The notes under the pieces are model-generated. The model had not been told where the DNA came from and made no database searches. It saw nothing but the letters and a program-made list of their open reading frames with translations. The position numbers were made by a program, and so were the translations under genes. A stretch of DNA of 64,000 nt from Pycnococcus provasolii (lineage: Eukaryota > Chlorophyta > Pseudoscourfieldiophyceae > Pseudoscourfieldiales > Pycnococcaceae): assembly GCA_938743325.2 (NCBI GenBank), contig OW568888.1, positions 434,001 to 498,000 of the forward strand, in the 5' to 3' direction. Within the stretch, counting starts at the first letter, position 1. Every line of letters begins with the position of its first letter. Below, piece after piece: positions 17,652-35,754 of this stretch.

Positions 17652-20600
17652 ATGTGCCCGCCTCCTGGCTCTGGGGCCTCCCCTGGCGTTTCAACTCCAG
17701 CTAATAATGGTGGGGGAGGTGGTGGGACCAACAACAACAACAACAATAACAACAACAGTGTTGGCGTGCGCGGTGGTGGTGGTGGTGCTCCCCCCGGTGG
17801 GCCCCGTCTGTGGCCACCATCTGCTTTTGCGCAAATGTACGCGCACACTAGCGTGTGGCTTGCACGCACATTTGCACAAACGCAAAAGCTTGCCGGTATC
17901 GCTCGCGTCATCAAGACAAAGATGCAAGATAACGCAAAGACGTACGTGTCCGTAGCGGCGCTTGCTCTGCTCTTGGCGTACTTCCGACTCGTCACGATTA
18001 TCTCCTGGGCGCTGCAAGCTACGTTCCTGCTCGCCGTCTTCGTTCCTCTTCTTGCGTCGAAACTACTCGCACCAGTTGCCGCGCATAGAACGACGCTGCT
18101 CGAAAATGCGGACGCTCTCGCACGTGCCGACGAAACAAGAAGGCGGCACAAAGCGACTTGTGACGCAACGCCGCAAGCAAGCAGCTGCAAGACGGAGCAG
18201 AGAACGCTACGCCTCGACGCTCTTCGCCGCTTTCTGCCAATGCCGTCGGCAGAGTCTTCAGGCCAACTCTCGTACTTTCTCACTGGCGCCACAGGCTTTG
18301 TCGGAACGTGCGTCCTTCGCGAAATCTTACTGCACACGGACGCCGCCGTCACAGTGCTGGTGCGTCCCAAGCGAGGTGTGAGCGCGGCAGAACGGCTCAC
18401 CGCTCTGCTGAACGACGCTGCTTTAGCCGACGTGCCGCAGCAACGCCGCGGCGATGTCAAGCCGCTCGCCGGAGATGCCACGCAACCTGACTTTGGCCTC
18501 GACGAGCACGATGCGCGAGCACTTCAGTCGGAGATGTTCACGCACGTTCTTCACTGCGCAGCTGACGTGTCGTTCGCGATGGACCTCGCGGAGGCTGCGC
18601 GCGCGAACATCACTTCGTCGCTGCAGGTGCAAGAGTACGCAAGGCATTGGCGCGCCACAATGGTATACACGAGCACCGCCTTTGTACACGGTGGCGCGTG
18701 TGGCTCCGAGCGCGCTCCGCTTCCCTGCGAGCTGTTCGAGCTCTCCGGCGGCGCCGATCCGGAGCAAATATATCACTCCATGCTCGGAAGTGGCGCACTG
18801 GCCGCCAAGGTGATGCGACGCCTTGGCTTCCCAAATTCGTACGCTTTTAGCAAGTGCATCGCAGAGCACCTGCTGCTACGAGATCACGCGACAGATGTGC
18901 GCATCGTGCGGCCTGCCATTGTCGGTCCCTCGTGGGCGACGCCTTGGCCGTCGTGGGCTGGAAGCAAGCCGAGCACACTCGTCGCCGGTGGCGTGCTTTA
19001 CCTTGCACGTCGTTCCTCCGCCTGGTCTCTCGGGCCGACGAACATACCGGTGATTCCCGTCGATGTGGTTGCGCGAGCCGTTGTTGTGTGCAGTCTCGAT
19101 TCAAGGGAGCACGCACCGCGCGTGTTTACCGCGGCTTGGCCGAGCGGATGCGCGCCGGAAGACAAAAATGCCAAGCAACTACAGAAGCAGACGCTATGGT
19201 GCGACTGGGCACGTGCTGTCATACAGCTCGGGACGTTGCGCAACCTTGTGCCCTTCGGGCGCATGCATGCACTCCTCTTGCATGCGCTAGGCACAGAGAT
19301 GGTGTCCCGCGTGCGATGGACACATGGCGGATTTGCTACGTTGCACCGTGTTCTGAACCGCGCACCGACCGAGCTTGCATTGCGTGTGCTGCGTCGCATT
19401 CGACCGAAGCAGGCGGAGCAGCTTGCGGGAGCACTCAAGCTTCTCGACCTGCCTCTGCTGTTTCATCCATTCACCGCGAGGAATTTTGTCTTCGAGTCGA
19501 GCTTGTCACATCGCAAGCTCGATGGCTTCGACGGGGAAGAATACCTTGCTGCATGCTGCATAGCTGCCATAGACAGCTTCCTAGCTGATCCGCCGCGAAA
19601 TCTGGGACTCGCCCGTGCTGATGTCCGTGACTGGCGTAGTCACGAGCTAACTCCCGCTCAAGACTCGTTGTGCACCCTGTGGCGATCAATGCGGACGACG
19701 CTGAACGCGTTTGCATGGAGCATCAGCCAGCCGCTGGGCAATGCCGCGCATCGTGCATTAGGCTTCGCGCTAACGCTTCTCTTTGCTAGCCTTGGAATGA
19801 AACTCACGGTGGATGTGGCTAGCTTCGCGGAAATGGCAAGACATCTTCGCAGGCGCTGCGACGGCGATGCGTCGTTATCGGCGCGTCCACCTGTTGTCGT
19901 GCTCGCTCCCACGCATCGTTCTGTGCTCGACTTTCTCGTCGTATCGTACATCACTTTCGCCATCCCCGAGCTTGGTCTTGCCATGCCTCATATTGCTGCG
20001 GCAGAGGAGTTTGGCACGTTGCCTGTTCTAGGCTGGCTTGCTCGAGCAGCTGGTGCGTTTTTCGTCAAGAGGCAGGGTGGCGGTCGAGCTGATGACGGTC
20101 TGGCTGCTCATGTGTCGTCGCTCAAAGCGCGGTACCGCGCCACTCGCGCCGCCGATCCGCCGCTAACGCTTGAGGTATTTGTGGAAGGCACGAGAAGCCG
20201 AGATCGCCGATTCGGAGTTCCGAAAAAGGGATTTTTGAGAATGCTGCAGGATACTGGTGGTGAGCACGTCGTCGTGCCGCTTTCCATTTCGTATGAACGT
20301 ACGCCTGAGCAAGCCCGCTTTGTTGGGAGTGGTTCAGGCTCCGCGGGAATCCATTTGAGCACGCTGCTGAGTGCTCTTGCGGCTCACATGGGCTTGTCCC
20401 ACGTCGCTATTCGCATGTTGGCATTGGCTCGCGGAAAGCGCTCTACAACATCGACGTCGACGTCGATGCCGACGACAAGCACTCGTGTTGGACGTGTGCA
20501 TGTCACCGCAGGATGTCCTGTGCCGCTACGAGTGTCTGACAACGCCGCGGACGTCGCCACTGCGGTAGTGCACGAGCAGATGAAACTCGTGCACGCTACA

Positions 20601-23111
20601 TCGTACCACACAAGCGCGACGGCTATGTGCCTTGGCATGCCCCCCTCGGAGGTGCACTTGGCTCTTCGCGCATGTGGCGTTCCGTTCCTAGAAGAGAGTG
20701 GTGAGAATGATACGATTGCAAGATGGAACCCGACGCCGCCGCGCGCAGGTGCGGAATTGGAAGCCGTTTCCCTGCACTGCCTTCACTTCGTCGCACCGCT
20801 GCTGCTTTCTAAGCAGGCTGTGGAGTCGTTTGCCAGGGAAGGAAGCTGCGTCGGGAACAATGCTGTGGGAGAGGCTGCGGCGCGGAGATGGCACGCATGG
20901 CTCACCGCGGGAGTCACGCCATCTGACGAGTCGATCATCACTGCCGTGAGTGAGATGGATGAGTCCATGAAAAACGCGCGCGACAGGCTTCGCGATCGAC
21001 TGATTGCGTGCATGGCATCTGCTGACGCTGCGGCTGCCGATGCTGTTAAGCATCTTGCCTCGCTTGGTGTCCCACACCCGAGTGCCGAGCACGTGTTGCG
21101 TCACGTCCCGAAGTCAAATGCGCATGGCCCGATGGCATTTGCTGCCGCCACCGCGGCTGCTGCCGCCGTTTCTGCGGAGGGCGATTGCAACACACATGCG
21201 CGTTCGCCGCCTAAATATGGAAGTGGCAATGCCGGTGGCGGCGCTGTGCGACCAGTGTTTTCGAGAAGTGCCACTGGCGTCAATGGCAATGCTTCTCCCG
21301 TTTTCTCGCACCGAACGGAGGCGGAAGCCTTCGGTGCGTGGGGATTTCTTGACAGCCGATTTGTGCTTCGTTCGACATCCGAGCATGCGAACGGTGCAGT
21401 CGTGCTGCTTGGTGATCGCTACGAACTCTGTGGACGTGCCATGCCTGGTTTAGTCGACTTCTTTGAGCGTCAACTCGATGTCGCGGGACTTGCGGATCGC
21501 AAGCCACTGCCTGAGGCTGATGCCACCGCGCCGCCGATTGTGCAACCGAGTGATTTGAAAGAATCGGACATTGAAGCGCTGCGTTTGACGCTTGGCGATG
21601 ATCGTGCGGTGTCAACCGATTCGGCGTGTCGATGTCGTCATGGCACGGGTCATTCACAAGAAGATGTGATGGCCCTCCGTGGATCGCGTCCCATGCCACG
21701 CGTGCCAGATGCCGTCGTCTGGCCATCATCCGAAAAGCATGCCGAGTCTCTGTGCACACTCGCGGTCGAACACGGCTGGTGTTTGATTCCATTTGGTGGT
21801 GGCACCAATGTCACGCATGCACTTTGGTGTCCGCCAAAGGATGTTGACAGTCGCCCGATGGTCTGCGTTGACATGCGCCACATGTGCACCGTGCACTGGG
21901 TGAACAAAGACGACGGCTTGGCGCGTGTGGACGCAGGCATCGTTGGGAGGCACCTCGTGGAAAAGTTGCGCGCACACGGCATGACGCTCGGCCATGAGCC
22001 CGACAGCCTGGAGTTCTCAACGCTCGGTGGTTGGGTGGCAACGCGAGCGAGTGGTATGAAGCGCACGCGGTACGGAAATATCGAGGACATTGTTCGCTCT
22101 GTACGCATGATCACGCCACGCGGGATATTGTGGCAGCACCACGACTACCACGGGTTGGATAAGACGGCGCAGACGGCATTCGGGCGCACAAGCAGTGGGC
22201 TGGAACTCGCGCAACTTGCGCTCGGCTCTGAGGGTTGCCTTGGGCTGATCACGAGCGTCGTGATTAAGGTTCGTCCTCTGCCAGAGTGCGAGGAGTGCGA
22301 CGCCGTCGTATTCCCAGACTGGGGAACGGGCCTGCGTTTCTGCCGCGCGCTCGCCAGATGTGCGATTAGACCCGTGTCCACACGCCTCGTAGACAGCGAG
22401 CAATTCCGACTCGGTGCCGTGCTTCGCGGCGATGCAACGAGATCGTTGACGGGGTGGATGAAACATGTACTTTCGCGAGGCATGCTGGCTGCGCGCGGGA
22501 TTGACACCTCGCGGGCGGTTGCGGCCACACTTCTCTTCGAAGGCTCGCGTGCCGAGGTGGCTGCCCAGCGTGCATCCGCGCGTGCCGCGGCATCAGGACT
22601 TGGCGGCCTCTTCGCGGGCGAGGCGACGGGACGCGCGGGGTACAACCTTACATTTGCAATCGCGTACCTTCGCGACTTTGCATTGTCGCATCACGTGCTC
22701 GGAGAGAGCTTCGAGACATTCGTTCCGTGGAGTTTGATGAAGGAATGCGTCGCGCGCGTGAGACGCCGCATTGCCGCCGTACACGCGAAGCGCGGCTTGC
22801 CTGGCACGCCGCTCGTGAGTGCGAGGGTGACGCAGCTGTACGACGACGGCGGATGCGTGTACTTTTACCTCGCGACATGCATTGCCGGCGTCGGCGAACC
22901 GTCCGCGGCATTTGCGGAATTGGAACATGAAGCGCGCGAGGAGGTGCTGGCAAGTGGCGGAAGCCTGAGCCATCACCACGGCGTGGGGAAGCTGAGGGCG
23001 GACTTCGCCGTGCGATCATCGAGTGGTGTACTTTGCGACGCTGTCAAGAAGTTGAAAGAGGCTGTGGATCCAGAGAATGTTTTTGGCGTGCGAAATGGCC
23101 TATATACATGA
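17652..23111 (+). CDS. Trifunctional fusion: fatty acyl-CoA reductase, DHAP acyltransferase-like, alkyl-DHAP synthase
   Basis: One intronless 1819-residue frame from the ATG at 17652. After a Gly/Asn-rich start and a hydrophobic hairpin (about 98-140) come three enzymes. (1) Fatty acyl-CoA reductase, about 205-660: NAD(P) motif GATGFVG, active-site YxxxK in SYAFSK, and a FAR C-terminal domain. (2) PlsC-type acyltransferase, about 740-930: HX4D in THRSVLD, GAFFVKRQ, EGTRSR and VPLSISYER, the GNPAT pattern. (3) Alkyl-DHAP synthase, about 1250-1819: WGFLDSRF, FAD-binding IPFGGGTNV, EPDSLEFSTLGGWV, RASGMK, CVYFY and SLSHHHGVGKLR. Together these make fatty alcohol, acyl-DHAP and alkyl-DHAP, the entry to ether lipids. 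No PTS1 is present (C-terminus GLYT) and no clear PTS2. TGTAA follows the stop. FAR-acyltransferase fusion is known in Dictyostelium (FARAT, from memory). Confidence 0.93.
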   Translation: MCPPPGSGASPGVSTPANNGGGGGGTNNNNNNNNNSVGVRGGGGGAPPGGPRLWPPSAFAQMYAHTSVWLARTFAQTQKLAGIARVIKTKMQDNAKTYVSVAALALLLAYFRLVTIISWALQATFLLAVFVPLLASKLLAPVAAHRTTLLENADALARADETRRRHKATCDATPQASSCKTEQRTLRLDALRRFLPMPSAESSGQLSYFLTGATGFVGTCVLREILLHTDAAVTVLVRPKRGVSAAERLTALLNDAALADVPQQRRGDVKPLAGDATQPDFGLDEHDARALQSEMFTHVLHCAADVSFAMDLAEAARANITSSLQVQEYARHWRATMVYTSTAFVHGGACGSERAPLPCELFELSGGADPEQIYHSMLGSGALAAKVMRRLGFPNSYAFSKCIAEHLLLRDHATDVRIVRPAIVGPSWATPWPSWAGSKPSTLVAGGVLYLARRSSAWSLGPTNIPVIPVDVVARAVVVCSLDSREHAPRVFTAAWPSGCAPEDKNAKQLQKQTLWCDWARAVIQLGTLRNLVPFGRMHALLLHALGTEMVSRVRWTHGGFATLHRVLNRAPTELALRVLRRIRPKQAEQLAGALKLLDLPLLFHPFTARNFVFESSLSHRKLDGFDGEEYLAACCIAAIDSFLADPPRNLGLARADVRDWRSHELTPAQDSLCTLWRSMRTTLNAFAWSISQPLGNAAHRALGFALTLLFASLGMKLTVDVASFAEMARHLRRRCDGDASLSARPPVVVLAPTHRSVLDFLVVSYITFAIPELGLAMPHIAAAEEFGTLPVLGWLARAAGAFFVKRQGGGRADDGLAAHVSSLKARYRATRAADPPLTLEVFVEGTRSRDRRFGVPKKGFLRMLQDTGGEHVVVPLSISYERTPEQARFVGSGSGSAGIHLSTLLSALAAHMGLSHVAIRMLALARGKRSTTSTSTSMPTTSTRVGRVHVTAGCPVPLRVSDNAADVATAVVHEQMKLVHATSYHTSATAMCLGMPPSEVHLALRACGVPFLEESGENDTIARWNPTPPRAGAELEAVSLHCLHFVAPLLLSKQAVESFAREGSCVGNNAVGEAAARRWHAWLTAGVTPSDESIITAVSEMDESMKNARDRLRDRLIACMASADAAAADAVKHLASLGVPHPSAEHVLRHVPKSNAHGPMAFAAATAAAAAVSAEGDCNTHARSPPKYGSGNAGGGAVRPVFSRSATGVNGNASPVFSHRTEAEAFGAWGFLDSRFVLRSTSEHANGAVVLLGDRYELCGRAMPGLVDFFERQLDVAGLADRKPLPEADATAPPIVQPSDLKESDIEALRLTLGDDRAVSTDSACRCRHGTGHSQEDVMALRGSRPMPRVPDAVVWPSSEKHAESLCTLAVEHGWCLIPFGGGTNVTHALWCPPKDVDSRPMVCVDMRHMCTVHWVNKDDGLARVDAGIVGRHLVEKLRAHGMTLGHEPDSLEFSTLGGWVATRASGMKRTRYGNIEDIVRSVRMITPRGILWQHHDYHGLDKTAQTAFGRTSSGLELAQLALGSEGCLGLITSVVIKVRPLPECEECDAVVFPDWGTGLRFCRALARCAIRPVSTRLVDSEQFRLGAVLRGDATRSLTGWMKHVLSRGMLAARGIDTSRAVAATLLFEGSRAEVAAQRASARAAASGLGGLFAGEATGRAGYNLTFAIAYLRDFALSHHVLGESFETFVPWSLMKECVARVRRRIAAVHAKRGLPGTPLVSARVTQLYDDGGCVYFYLATCIAGVGEPSAAFAELEHEAREEVLASGGSLSHHHGVGKLRADFAVRSSSGVLCDAVKKLKEAVDPENVFGVRNGLYT

Positions 23112-32712: not shown

Positions 32713-35424
32713 CTATTGATCTATGGACCAGCCTAGATCCTCAACCATGCTGATAATTTTATCCAAAGACTTGGGCCCAATGCCATTCAGCGTAAGCAAA
32801 TCGTCCTTCCTACGCGAGCATAAATCCGACAGCGTGGATATTCCACTCTGGCGAAGCGAGTTCTCGACGCGCGCTCCAAGCTTGAGCTCCGTAACCTTCG
32901 TCGAGCCGTCGACGGGATCGCCCTTTGGTGCAGCAGCCTTCTTCTTCGTGGATGTCTTCTTCTTCGACGATGCCGCCGAGTCAGCAGTAGCAACCTTCTT
33001 CTTCACCGTCTTCTTCTTCTCCGCTTTCACCTCCTGCTCCTTCTCCTCCTCCGCCGCAACCACCGCAGCCGCGGCAGTTTCTGATGATGCGAGCGAGCTG
33101 TCGTCGTAGTCAATCATAAACTGATCCTCCTCACGCTCGATCGTTGCCGATGATGATGTCTGCGATGATCGTGCCACGCTCGATCGCCTGCTCGGTGCCA
33201 TAGCATCGCCGTACAGAGCTGCATCCACGACGGGACCACCCGCATCTGCGGGAGGAGGGCCGCGTCTTCCTGGAACGGACTCCAAGCCGGCGTACGCGAC
33301 GGCGTTCTTTCCAAACAGAACCTCGTCGTACACCGTCTGCCGGCAGTCTTCCTCGCCGCCAGGTGCGTCGCCAGGCAGCGGGCGATCGAACAGGAGCGCA
33401 CGCACCTCCTCGTCGTGCGGAACTTCCGACGCATCGAGCATGCCGTTCGCGTACAGCTGCCGAGCGATGCCCTGCGAGTTGACGAAGCACACAACCAGCT
33501 GCGGATCGTAGTGTCCCGCCAGGTGCGCCTGCAGCTCCGCGTCGTCATTCGCGTCGTAAGGAGGAAGGCTTCCCAGGCTCGCGACGCCCGCCGAGTCGAG
33601 GTGCTCGAGGCTCTCGCGTGCCATCCGCGATGCCCAGCGACGTCCGTTGCGCTCCTCAAGCCACGCGACGAGCTTGGCGTAGAAGTCGCGATCCGCGAGA
33701 TCCTCGCAGGCGTTCACCGTGCACCACATCCCGTCGTGCAAGTCATCTGGCTCGCCAGGCTGAGCGACGCGCACGACGCGGTGTGCACCGAGTGTCTCCG
33801 GCCCTCCTCCGCCGGAGGCGCGCGTCGTGACTCCTGCGGGCGGCGACATGAGATCCGCCACCTCCGGCGTCGTTGGCGGCTGCCACCACCACCGGTACCT
33901 GCGATACGCTTCCACACCGAGGCTCGACAGCTCCTCCGCCTCCACGCCACGCCAGTGCTCATCCTGCTGCCTGCGCTCTGCGCCGTCCTCAAGCGCACGC
34001 CAGTCGGCGTAGTCGTCGAAGCCGCGCATCGCCGCGTCGTAGTCACGCATGTGCTCCGCCTCGCGCTCTGCGTCGAGGCGAGCGGCATCGCGCAGGTTCG
34101 GCTCGTGCGCCTGCAGAGCCTCCGCGAGCTTCTCATCCCATCCTTTCATGTTCTCCGCACCTTTCAGCATACCCTCCCACCAGAAAGTTGCCTTGTCGAC
34201 GGCACGTGCCATGAGGTTGCCTGCATCACAGCGCACGTCACTCCAAACCTCGAATGTCAGGCGTTCCGACTGCAGAAGCATGGTCGCCCGTCCTGTCCAG
34301 TCGCTGACGCGTCCATGCTCTGGGCTCGTTCCTGTGATTTTGTACTTGACGCGCTCCACTGGCGTGAAATTTCGCTCGAGCAGAACCTCCGTGTCACGGC
34401 TCACTTCCAAAACTTCGGGCACCTGCACGAAATTGCGATCGACGAGATCTTTCTGCGATGGAAGCACGGACCTGTCCTCGGAGTGCAACACCTGCATGCC
34501 CATTCCGCGCATGAAGGTGAAGCGCAGCGTGAGGCTCCATCCCTCGCGCACGTGCACGACGTGCGTGTCAGGCTGCACGCAGACGATTCCCGCCGGCGTG
34601 GGCACGTCACCTCCAAACAGCGTTTTTGGACCTTCGATGGTAAACTCCTGCACGGCATCCTCCGGTTGAGGTCTTTCCTCCTGCCCCGTTTCCTCTGCCC
34701 ATGTTGTCGGCGGTTCCACCTCGTCCACAAACCTCAAGTTGGCAAGTTTCGATCGCATCTGCAGAACCGTGACGTCCGTTCCAGGGAGCACGGACGCGTC
34801 GGCGAGCAGCATGTCGTCGTCGAGCGACGGCACGGCGAAGCTGGATATGCATACGCCGTTCGCGTCCTGCATGGCTAGCTTGAGCATCTGCGCGAGTGTG
34901 AGTGCCTCCCCCCTGTTGAGCGGGTCAATGACGAACACGCCGTACGACCCTCCCCCTGGCGTATCGAGTTGTCTGACGAGGTCCATTTCTGTCCACGACG
35001 CCGAGACCGCCTCGACGGTGGTAGCCGTGCGCGTCACCTCTGGTGCCTTGATGGCGAGGTATTCGTCCATGGTCATTCGGTTCGCGACTTGCGCATCCGC
35101 GAGTAGGTTCGCCCCGTAGAGTCCCAGTCCAAAGTCGTCGTCGTCGTCGCCAAACGACGCACCACTGGAATTACCGGCGTCGTCGTCCAAGGCTTTGGCA
35201 ATGCAAAAGCGGTTATGCCTGTGACCACGCAGAGCACGTGAAGGCAGACTCGCTGCCGCGAGTCTGCCAAGACCACCACTTGATGATGTTTTGACTTGAC
35301 CCACAACATGAGCAGACACCTTAGTAGAGTAACCACCGCACCGAACTACAATACCACCACCACCACCACCACCACCACACCGCTGCTGCTGCTTATAACC
35401 CTTTGAGCCACGAGAGCTCATCAT
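32713..35424 (-). CDS. rpoA: Nuclear-encoded, enlarged plastid RNA polymerase alpha subunit-like protein
   Basis: A 903-residue protein from the ATG at 35422-35424. Its first 85 residues are Ser/Gly/Arg-rich and poor in acids, a plausible plastid transit peptide. Residues about 150-425 resemble the RpoA N-terminal domain: YGVFVIDPLNRGEALTLAQM (compare FVIEPLERGFGTTLGN), VLPGTDVTVLQMRSKLANL, EFTIEGPKTLFGGDV, and FTPVERVKYKI with LTFEVWSDV. Residues about 840-900 are an alpha-CTD: VTELKLGARVENSLRQSGI, then LLTLNGIGPKSLDKI. Between lie about 400 extra residues, partly acidic and Trp-rich, ending in a Lys-rich linker. RpoA dimers nucleate the bacterial-type plastid polymerase. The alpha-CTD is clear; the N-terminal match is divergent but in the right order. 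It would be a plastid-to-nucleus transferred gene. Confidence 0.7.
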   Translation of the reverse strand: MMSSRGSKGYKQQQRCGGGGGGGGIVVRCGGYSTKVSAHVVGQVKTSSSGGLGRLAAASLPSRALRGHRHNRFCIAKALDDDAGNSSGASFGDDDDDFGLGLYGANLLADAQVANRMTMDEYLAIKAPEVTRTATTVEAVSASWTEMDLVRQLDTPGGGSYGVFVIDPLNRGEALTLAQMLKLAMQDANGVCISSFAVPSLDDDMLLADASVLPGTDVTVLQMRSKLANLRFVDEVEPPTTWAEETGQEERPQPEDAVQEFTIEGPKTLFGGDVPTPAGIVCVQPDTHVVHVREGWSLTLRFTFMRGMGMQVLHSEDRSVLPSQKDLVDRNFVQVPEVLEVSRDTEVLLERNFTPVERVKYKITGTSPEHGRVSDWTGRATMLLQSERLTFEVWSDVRCDAGNLMARAVDKATFWWEGMLKGAENMKGWDEKLAEALQAHEPNLRDAARLDAEREAEHMRDYDAAMRGFDDYADWRALEDGAERRQQDEHWRGVEAEELSSLGVEAYRRYRWWWQPPTTPEVADLMSPPAGVTTRASGGGGPETLGAHRVVRVAQPGEPDDLHDGMWCTVNACEDLADRDFYAKLVAWLEERNGRRWASRMARESLEHLDSAGVASLGSLPPYDANDDAELQAHLAGHYDPQLVVCFVNSQGIARQLYANGMLDASEVPHDEEVRALLFDRPLPGDAPGGEEDCRQTVYDEVLFGKNAVAYAGLESVPGRRGPPPADAGGPVVDAALYGDAMAPSRRSSVARSSQTSSSATIEREEDQFMIDYDDSSLASSETAAAAVVAAEEEKEQEVKAEKKKTVKKKVATADSAASSKKKTSTKKKAAAPKGDPVDGSTKVTELKLGARVENSLRQSGISTLSDLCSRRKDDLLTLNGIGPKSLDKIISMVEDLGWSIDQ

Positions 35425-35754
35425 GATGAAACAACACACCACAGAGGAGCGAGAGCAAACACGTGTACTAAAATAAAAGTACGCACGCTTTTGGAAAAAG
35501 TGCAGAATGCCCACAGGTTCGTTCGCGTTCGCGTTCGAGTTCGCGCCGCCGACGAACACTCCAGGGGGGGGGGGGCCGAACCCCTCCCTCCCAGGGGGTG
35601 GATAAAGCCCAGGGGAAAAAGCGCAACGCCTGGGGGACCCGCCCTCCGAATTATTCGGGGTTCGCTGGGTGGCTGGCTGGCTGGTTTGTTTTCTGTTTCA
35701 TTTCGGGGTTTATTTTGTACACGTTTCACAGACTATACAACTAACCTTAGTAGT
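35425..35754. other. Intergenic region upstream of RpoA-like gene
   Basis: 330 bp with GTTCGC repeats at about 35519-35545, a G9 homopolymer near 35567 and GGCTGGCT repeats near 35672. No gene seen. Confidence 0.5.

Follow-up and report, generated by a model that had tools for sequence, protein, structure and literature searches.

A putative three-module ether-lipid enzyme encoded by one gene in the green alga Pycnococcus provasolii and by related fusions in other algae

The window analyzed here is a stretch of 64,000 nucleotides from the genome of Pycnococcus provasolii (positions 434,001 to 498,000 of contig OW568888.1), an alga placed by the NCBI taxonomy in Chlorophyta, Pseudoscourfieldiophyceae. 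One of its genes encodes a protein that joins, in this order, a fatty acyl-CoA reductase (FAR), an acyltransferase (AT) of the GPAT1/GNPAT fold, and a full alkylglycerone-phosphate synthase (AGPS). The protein is most probably an alkyl-dihydroxyacetone phosphate (alkyl-DHAP) synthase with three activities, anchored in a membrane, that carries out the committed first steps of glycerol ether-lipid synthesis. This assignment is based on the presence of the three modules on one chain, their homology to FAR, AT, and AGPS, the predicted FAR and AT folds, the conservation of catalytic residues, the ancestry shared with other algal fusions, and bacterial gene pairs in which the corresponding parts lie side by side.

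The gene and its genomic context

The gene (Table 1) is a single frame of 1,819 codons that starts with ATG at position 17652, contains no internal stops, and closes with a stop codon ending at 23111; the frame between the flanking stops is longer by just 8 codons. All Pfam domain calls exceeded the curated cut-offs: NAD_binding_4 at residues 210-477 (E 3.4e-40), Acyltransferase at 749-880 (4.9e-18), FAD_binding_4 at 1352-1492 (1.5e-31), and FAD-oxidase_C at 1551-1811 (7e-31). The DNA frame and Pfam thus agree with the initial annotation of this region, which had described one intronless frame with three domains in order.

In the examined genome assembly (46 contigs, 32.33 Mb, with the window on contig 28) the fusion gene is single-copy and a separate AGPS was not found, the three other matches being weak, confined to the FAD part, and 26-34% identical. 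For the strain CCAP190/2, a genome of 32.2 Mb with 44 chromosomal pseudomolecules plus organelles has been reported (PMC11130579). A second P. provasolii record, with a longest contig of 528,593 bases, encodes a protein of 1,821 residues (P0002) with identical architecture and 99% identity, differing by 17 substitutions and two additional Asn.

Table 1. Coordinates of the fusion gene and its parts in the window
Feature	Residues	Window positions	Strand	Basis
Whole gene, FAR - acyltransferase - AGPS fusion, 1819 aa		17652..23111	+	Frame and Pfam
Low-complexity Gly/Asn/Pro-rich N-terminus	1-60	17652..17831	+	Sequence; Asn-run length varies between the two records
Two hydrophobic 19-mers (probable membrane hairpin)	99-117, 125-143	17946..18080	+	
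Fatty acyl-CoA reductase module	196-646	18237..19589	+	FAR fold match spans 196-646
FAR catalytic YAFSK (Y397, K401)	397-401	18840..18854	+	Y and K in 22/22 aligned fusions
GPAT1/GNPAT-type acyltransferase module	672-1184	19665..21203	+	
Acyltransferase HX4D motif HRSVLD	H755-D760	19914..19931	+	H and D in 22/22
Acyltransferase EGTRS motif	845-849	20184..20198	+	E845, G846, R848 in 22/22; S849 in 21/22
Alkylglycerone-phosphate synthase module	1215-1815	21294..23096	+	Match to AGPS 4bby, E 2.8e-126
AGPS His triad	H1774-1776	22971..22979	+	Counterpart of SHHHG in the AGPS of guinea pig and of Dictyostelium

Catalytic residues and predicted folds

The FAR module contains the GxxGxxG motif GATGFVG beginning at residue 212, the AT module EGTRSR at residues 845-850, and the AGPS module GGGTNV from 1382, EPDSLEFSTLGGW from 1449, and SLSHHHGVGK, which includes H1774-1776. 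Relative to guinea pig AGPS (structure 4bby), the Pycnococcus AGPS part keeps the equivalents of the catalytic or disease residues D303, T309, R419, R515, Y578, and H615-617. All mapped catalytic residues are present in Pycnococcus, and none of the listed residues is touched by the 17 substitutions between the two records. In the alignment of 22 fusions, the exceptions were gaps in two rows, the equivalent of AGPS H300 (see below), and changes at 804 (two rows), 807, and 849 (one each); Gly 801 is variable, and the His triad is retained in 21 of the 22, with a gap in the remaining one. The motif positions and these mapped residues bear out the initial view that the key motifs are intact.

Structure prediction, suggested earlier as a check, gave FAR and GPAT1-type folds for the first two modules. 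The nearest solved structure to the predicted AT part is human GPAT1, and no GNPAT structure appears among the matches listed.

Distribution of the fusion in algae

A whole-protein search yielded a list of 85 homologues, in which domains were counted from the Pfam column. NAD_binding_4, Acyltransferase, and FAD_binding_4 occur together in 67 of them, spread over several algal groups, so the idea of a peculiarity of Pycnococcus alone did not hold. The three domains are present in the diatoms Thalassiosira, Cyclotella, Discostella, Stephanodiscus, Cyclostephanos, Skeletonema, Nitzschia, Fistulifera, and Seminavis, in Triparma and Phaeothamnion, in the dinoflagellate Effrenium, and in P0069, which clusters with two brown algae, Ectocarpus and Hapterophycus. 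The other 18 homologues comprise 11 lacking one of the domains (fragments, a Leptospirales AGPS, and an Ectocarpus protein in which FAR was not called) and 7 proteins of the acyl-CoA-synthetase type that have no AGPS. The diatom, Triparma, and dinoflagellate fusions, annotated as alkyldihydroxyacetonephosphate synthase, alkylglycerone-phosphate synthase, or hypothetical proteins, resemble the Pycnococcus protein in modules, their order, the hydrophobic stretch before FAR, and clade membership. Thalassiosira pseudonana and Phaeodactylum tricornutum were stated to lack a FAR-DHAPAT (DHAP acyltransferase) fusion (PMC3143110); the homologues listed here include such a fusion in T. profunda and T. 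oceanica.

BLAST detected an N-terminal DegT-like stretch in 58 of 79 sequences and an ACBP-like one in 45 of 79; both Pycnococcus proteins (P0001 and P0002) lack these modules, unlike many other algal fusions. In diatom- and dinoflagellate-type fusions, the N-terminal regions (residues 1-745 of P0012 and 60-430 of P0067) contain a DegT/DnrJ aminotransferase-like module, accompanied in P0012 by ACBP. These modules share a conserved SFGxIKTxTALGG motif with a probable pyridoxal phosphate lysine.

A protein search with the AGPS part covered the best 120 of 4373 matches. Three metagenome proteins of about 800 residues (P0295, P0311, and P0322), probably bacterial, combine a PlsC-like acyltransferase with AGPS of another type; this fusion apparently arose independently.

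Phylogeny

In AGPS trees, where non-fused eukaryotes were few (one animal, amoebozoans, and kinetoplastid-like rows), the Pycnococcus FAD module groups with AGPS and the fusions form one clade. Its support was 100/100 in a 39-row tree, where it comprised 23 fusion rows, including a few fragments that lack FAR, together with P0087, a piece of AGPS only with 73% identity to Pycnococcus, and again 100/100 for 15 fusion rows in a 68-row tree with bacteria. A 62-row quick tree united 32 fusion rows (SH-aLRT 99), with seven AGPS-only pieces nested inside. Placing the fusions together with guinea pig, the only animal sequence, gave p 0.162 in the approximately unbiased (AU) test, leaving the relation to bacteria and animals open.

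In both the FAR-AT tree and the joined FAR-AT plus AGPS tree, the neighbours of Pycnococcus are Triparma and diatom-type rows, at 100/98 in the joined tree rooted on 16 bacterial gene pairs. Outside this group fall the dinoflagellate-type rows, P0061, Seminavis P0054, and, in the joined tree only, P0069. The alternative with Pycnococcus sister to all 19 other fusions was rejected on the joined tree (p 0.0117), in a test named after the FAR-AT tree had been inspected. The outgroup is distant, most rows are metagenome proteins, and Pycnococcus is the single green lineage with FAR-AT in the set; gene transfer between ochrophytes and Pycnococcus, in either direction, is suggested, but old paralogues could produce a similar tree. 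A viral carrier was rejected because two scans of viral contigs with the AGPS part found no relatives. The Seminavis robusta fusion P0054 is strongly divergent, branches outside other diatom fusions, and is perhaps a second, older paralogue.

Bacterial gene pairs

No relatives were recovered from bacterial genomes when the single protein served as query. A scan with alignment A3 recovered at least 568 AGPS relatives, of which the best 80 were kept with up to 3 kb of flank each, FAR and AT frames being detected by hidden Markov models built here. A fused FAR-AT frame lies near AGPS in 16 of the 80 loci, and 15 of the 65 loci with at least 2.2 kb downstream have it downstream on the same strand. 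These 15 pairs belong to Pseudomonadota (4), Myxococcota (3), Gemmatimonadota (2), Nitrospirota, Actinomycetota, and Bacteroidota (1 each); the remaining 3 have no phylum in the table, two being Sericytochromatia by title. FAR alone or AT alone was found in frames of 20 further loci and neither in the rest, and none of the 80 loci has all three domains in one frame. Since the Myxococcus operon described below is published, the pairing is a known arrangement, here extended to further phyla.

Several loci have additional features. Three scanned downstream frames (L024, L033, and L059) are epimerase/dehydratases. A Nitrospira FAR-AT frame (L027:4779-7730) runs on into an epimerase/dehydratase domain, and in a Leptospirales protein (P0077) AGPS is joined to a short-chain dehydrogenase; these fused domains are candidate alkyl-DHAP reductases. 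The record titled Comamonas sp. KCTC 72670 (about 9 Mb; L043, one of the four Pseudomonadota pairs, and L104) carries an AGPS that groups with Archangium and a CarF-like desaturase, and is probably a mislabelled myxobacterium. The Sericytochromatia genomes (L105 and L106) combine AGPS/FAR-AT pairs with a PF10520 protein, that of L105 being neither clearly CarF nor FAD4.

Comparison with known systems

The Myxococcus xanthus operon consists of MXAN_1676 (AGPS), MXAN_1675 (FAR1-like plus GNPAT-like), and MXAN_1674 (NAD epimerase/dehydratase) (PMC9131029). It shares with the alga the three kinds of domain and the order FAR before AT on one chain, but its AGPS is a separate first gene, whereas the algal AGPS forms the C-terminus of a chain with an N-terminal hydrophobic hairpin. 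The myxobacterial ElbD, another ether-lipid protein of several domains, likewise includes an acyltransferase and a FAR-like domain, but it carries acyl-CoA synthetase and carrier-protein domains, and no AGPS domain is named for it (PMC9131029).

Dictyostelium FARAT (PMC7375469) and Tetrahymena ART1 (PMC3143110) are single chains in which FAR likewise precedes a DHAP acyltransferase, but without AGPS; the algal chain has AGPS and the hairpin and lacks a type 1 peroxisomal targeting signal (PTS1), unlike Dictyostelium FARAT, which ends in SKL and resides in the peroxisome lumen (PMC7375469). When FARAT is knocked out, Dictyostelium retains only 13% of its ether storage lipid (PMC7375469). Besides the Dictyostelium fusion named in the initial annotation, FAR-AT fusions occur in Tetrahymena, Paramecium, Phytophthora, and Naegleria (PMC3143110), as well as in Myxococcus (PMC9131029). 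In animals, the homologous domains of FAR1, GNPAT, and AGPS perform the same reaction series as three separate proteins, GNPAT and AGPS in the peroxisome lumen and FAR1 tail-anchored on the cytosolic face (PMC9131029), whereas all algal modules would face one compartment. In Guillardia theta, FAR and AGPS are separate, each with a PTS1 (PMC9244630). Searches of the open-access literature, covering the titles and abstracts listed and passages of PMC9244630, PMC3143110, PMC7375469, PMC13256971, PMC8100218, PMC6723447, PMC5028394, PMC9131029, and PMC4690255 (subscription papers not covered), yielded no description of a FAR-DHAPAT-AGPS protein, in line with the initial remark that no three-domain version was known.

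Proposed function and alternatives

The FAR module would reduce acyl-CoA to fatty alcohol with NADPH, the GNPAT-like module would acylate DHAP, a specificity suggested by context, and the FAD-dependent AGPS module would replace the acyl chain with the fatty alcohol to yield alkyl-DHAP. Intermediates may be handed over between the modules, which the hairpin would hold on one face of a membrane, that of the endoplasmic reticulum, peroxisome, or lipid droplet; since a hairpin keeps the side of the membrane, the same compartment is expected for all three. The hydrophobicity profile agrees with the hairpin noted initially. Of 64 testable fusions, 59 have a hydrophobic 19-mer in the 160 residues preceding FAR, versus 27 of 207 AGPS-part windows of equal size. 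The anchor is apparently an algal addition because the most hydrophobic 19-mer of bacterial FAR-AT frames lies at or after the FAR start (16/16). Alkyl-DHAP would presumably be reduced and acylated by separate enzymes into alkyl (plasmanyl) lipids. A PEDS1-type desaturase was not recognised in the P. provasolii genome in a PF10520 search, the types being told apart by their motifs, and alkyl products are therefore likelier than plasmalogens. The genome also has one gene of the YhhN (lysoplasmalogenase) type, which is not interpretable.

The earlier proposal of an ether-lipid entry pathway is likely right, the bacterial AGPS/FAR-AT pairs and the Myxococcus operon (PMC9131029) lending it support. 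Several observations weigh against it. The equivalent of AGPS H300, His in Pycnococcus, is Met in 6 of the 22 fusions. The AT fold does not distinguish DHAP from glycerol-3-phosphate acyltransferases, and Pfam gave no call of the FAR C-terminal domain at E 1e-3 or, for residues 467-749, at E 10. The only PF10520 gene found in P. provasolii looks like plastid FAD4 rather than PEDS1 (FQGHH..PWTIT versus REHHV..AITRHDF in a CarF-like protein). The epimerase of L033 has no relative in the P. provasolii genome, a weak negative. Animal AGPS carries a type 2 signal (PTS2); the Pycnococcus protein has no PTS2-type match and, as noted in the initial annotation, no PTS1, its chain ending in GLYT, and the terminal pattern [SAC][KRH][LM] occurs in 0 of 79 sequences (P0001-P0079, some truncated). 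These absences bear on location, not chemistry, and peroxisomes are likely in P. provasolii because Pex19 is encoded in its genome. Known GNPAT, AGPS, and FARAT are peroxisomal (PMC7375469, PMC9131029). In M. xanthus, the AGPS of the homologous operon yields a minor share of ether lipids, its loss causing a minor fall (PMC9131029).

The modules might instead serve different pathways, with FAR supplying alcohols for wax esters, AT using glycerol-3-phosphate for phospholipids or triacylglycerol, and AGPS acting occasionally. The likeness of the AT fold to human GPAT1, with no GNPAT structure among those listed, fits this reading, which is nevertheless unlikely: divergent algae retain a single chain that links FAR and AT to AGPS, the bacterial gene pairs indicate one pathway, and other GPAT-like genes are present in P. 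provasolii (a GPAT_N search of the genome, run without a positive control, was empty). Less probable still is a partial pathway in which one module, likeliest FAR or AT, has a structural role and no catalytic activity. Dead domains can persist in multidomain enzymes, and the uncalled FAR C-terminal domain would agree with such a loss; however, Pycnococcus keeps every mapped catalytic residue, the exceptions among the 22 fusions are those given above, and the substitutions between the records spare all listed positions. A D-lactate or 2-hydroxyacid dehydrogenase as the C-terminal module can be dismissed, since, although FAD-oxidase domains are common to both enzymes and D-lactate dehydrogenase 8jdc also matches, AGPS chains match full-length with up to 426 bits versus 85 and the AGPS Tyr, Arg, and His residues are present. 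Equally negligible is a fusion of neighbouring genes by assembly or gene model, a known artefact (PMC3143110) of which there is no sign here, because the stop-free frame lies in the DNA itself, the second record excludes the joining error considered initially, and other lineages keep the module order.

Implications

If the proposed trifunctional enzyme is real, one polypeptide lets a green alga, many diatoms, bolidophytes, dinoflagellates, and perhaps brown algae begin glycerol ether-lipid synthesis, and such algae are a possible source of marine alkyl-glycerol biomarkers. The presence of the fusion in diatoms and a dinoflagellate hints that the capacity for ether lipids is commoner among algae than usually assumed. 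The full algal chain (ACBP, aminotransferase-like module, hairpin, FAR, DHAPAT, and AGPS) could tentatively be viewed as a one-face membrane assembly line outside the classical peroxisome lumen, widespread in marine algae, with Pycnococcus, from the green kingdom where the route is thought largely absent, having a minimal form, transferred between ochrophytes and the green lineage. The loss of AGPS or GNPAT in animals leads to rhizomelic chondrodysplasia, and the fusion offers a natural construct for studying how substrates pass between three enzymes that animals make as separate proteins. Plants have been described as largely lacking ether lipids (PMC13256971), and the fusion gene could mark ether-lipid capacity in plankton data.

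Another gene in the window

Elsewhere in the window, a 948-residue frame on the reverse strand (32713-35559) matches the C-terminal domain of RNA polymerase alpha (E 3e-11), with an RpoA insert match under the cut-off, and is probably a nuclear gene for the alpha subunit of the plastid RNA polymerase.
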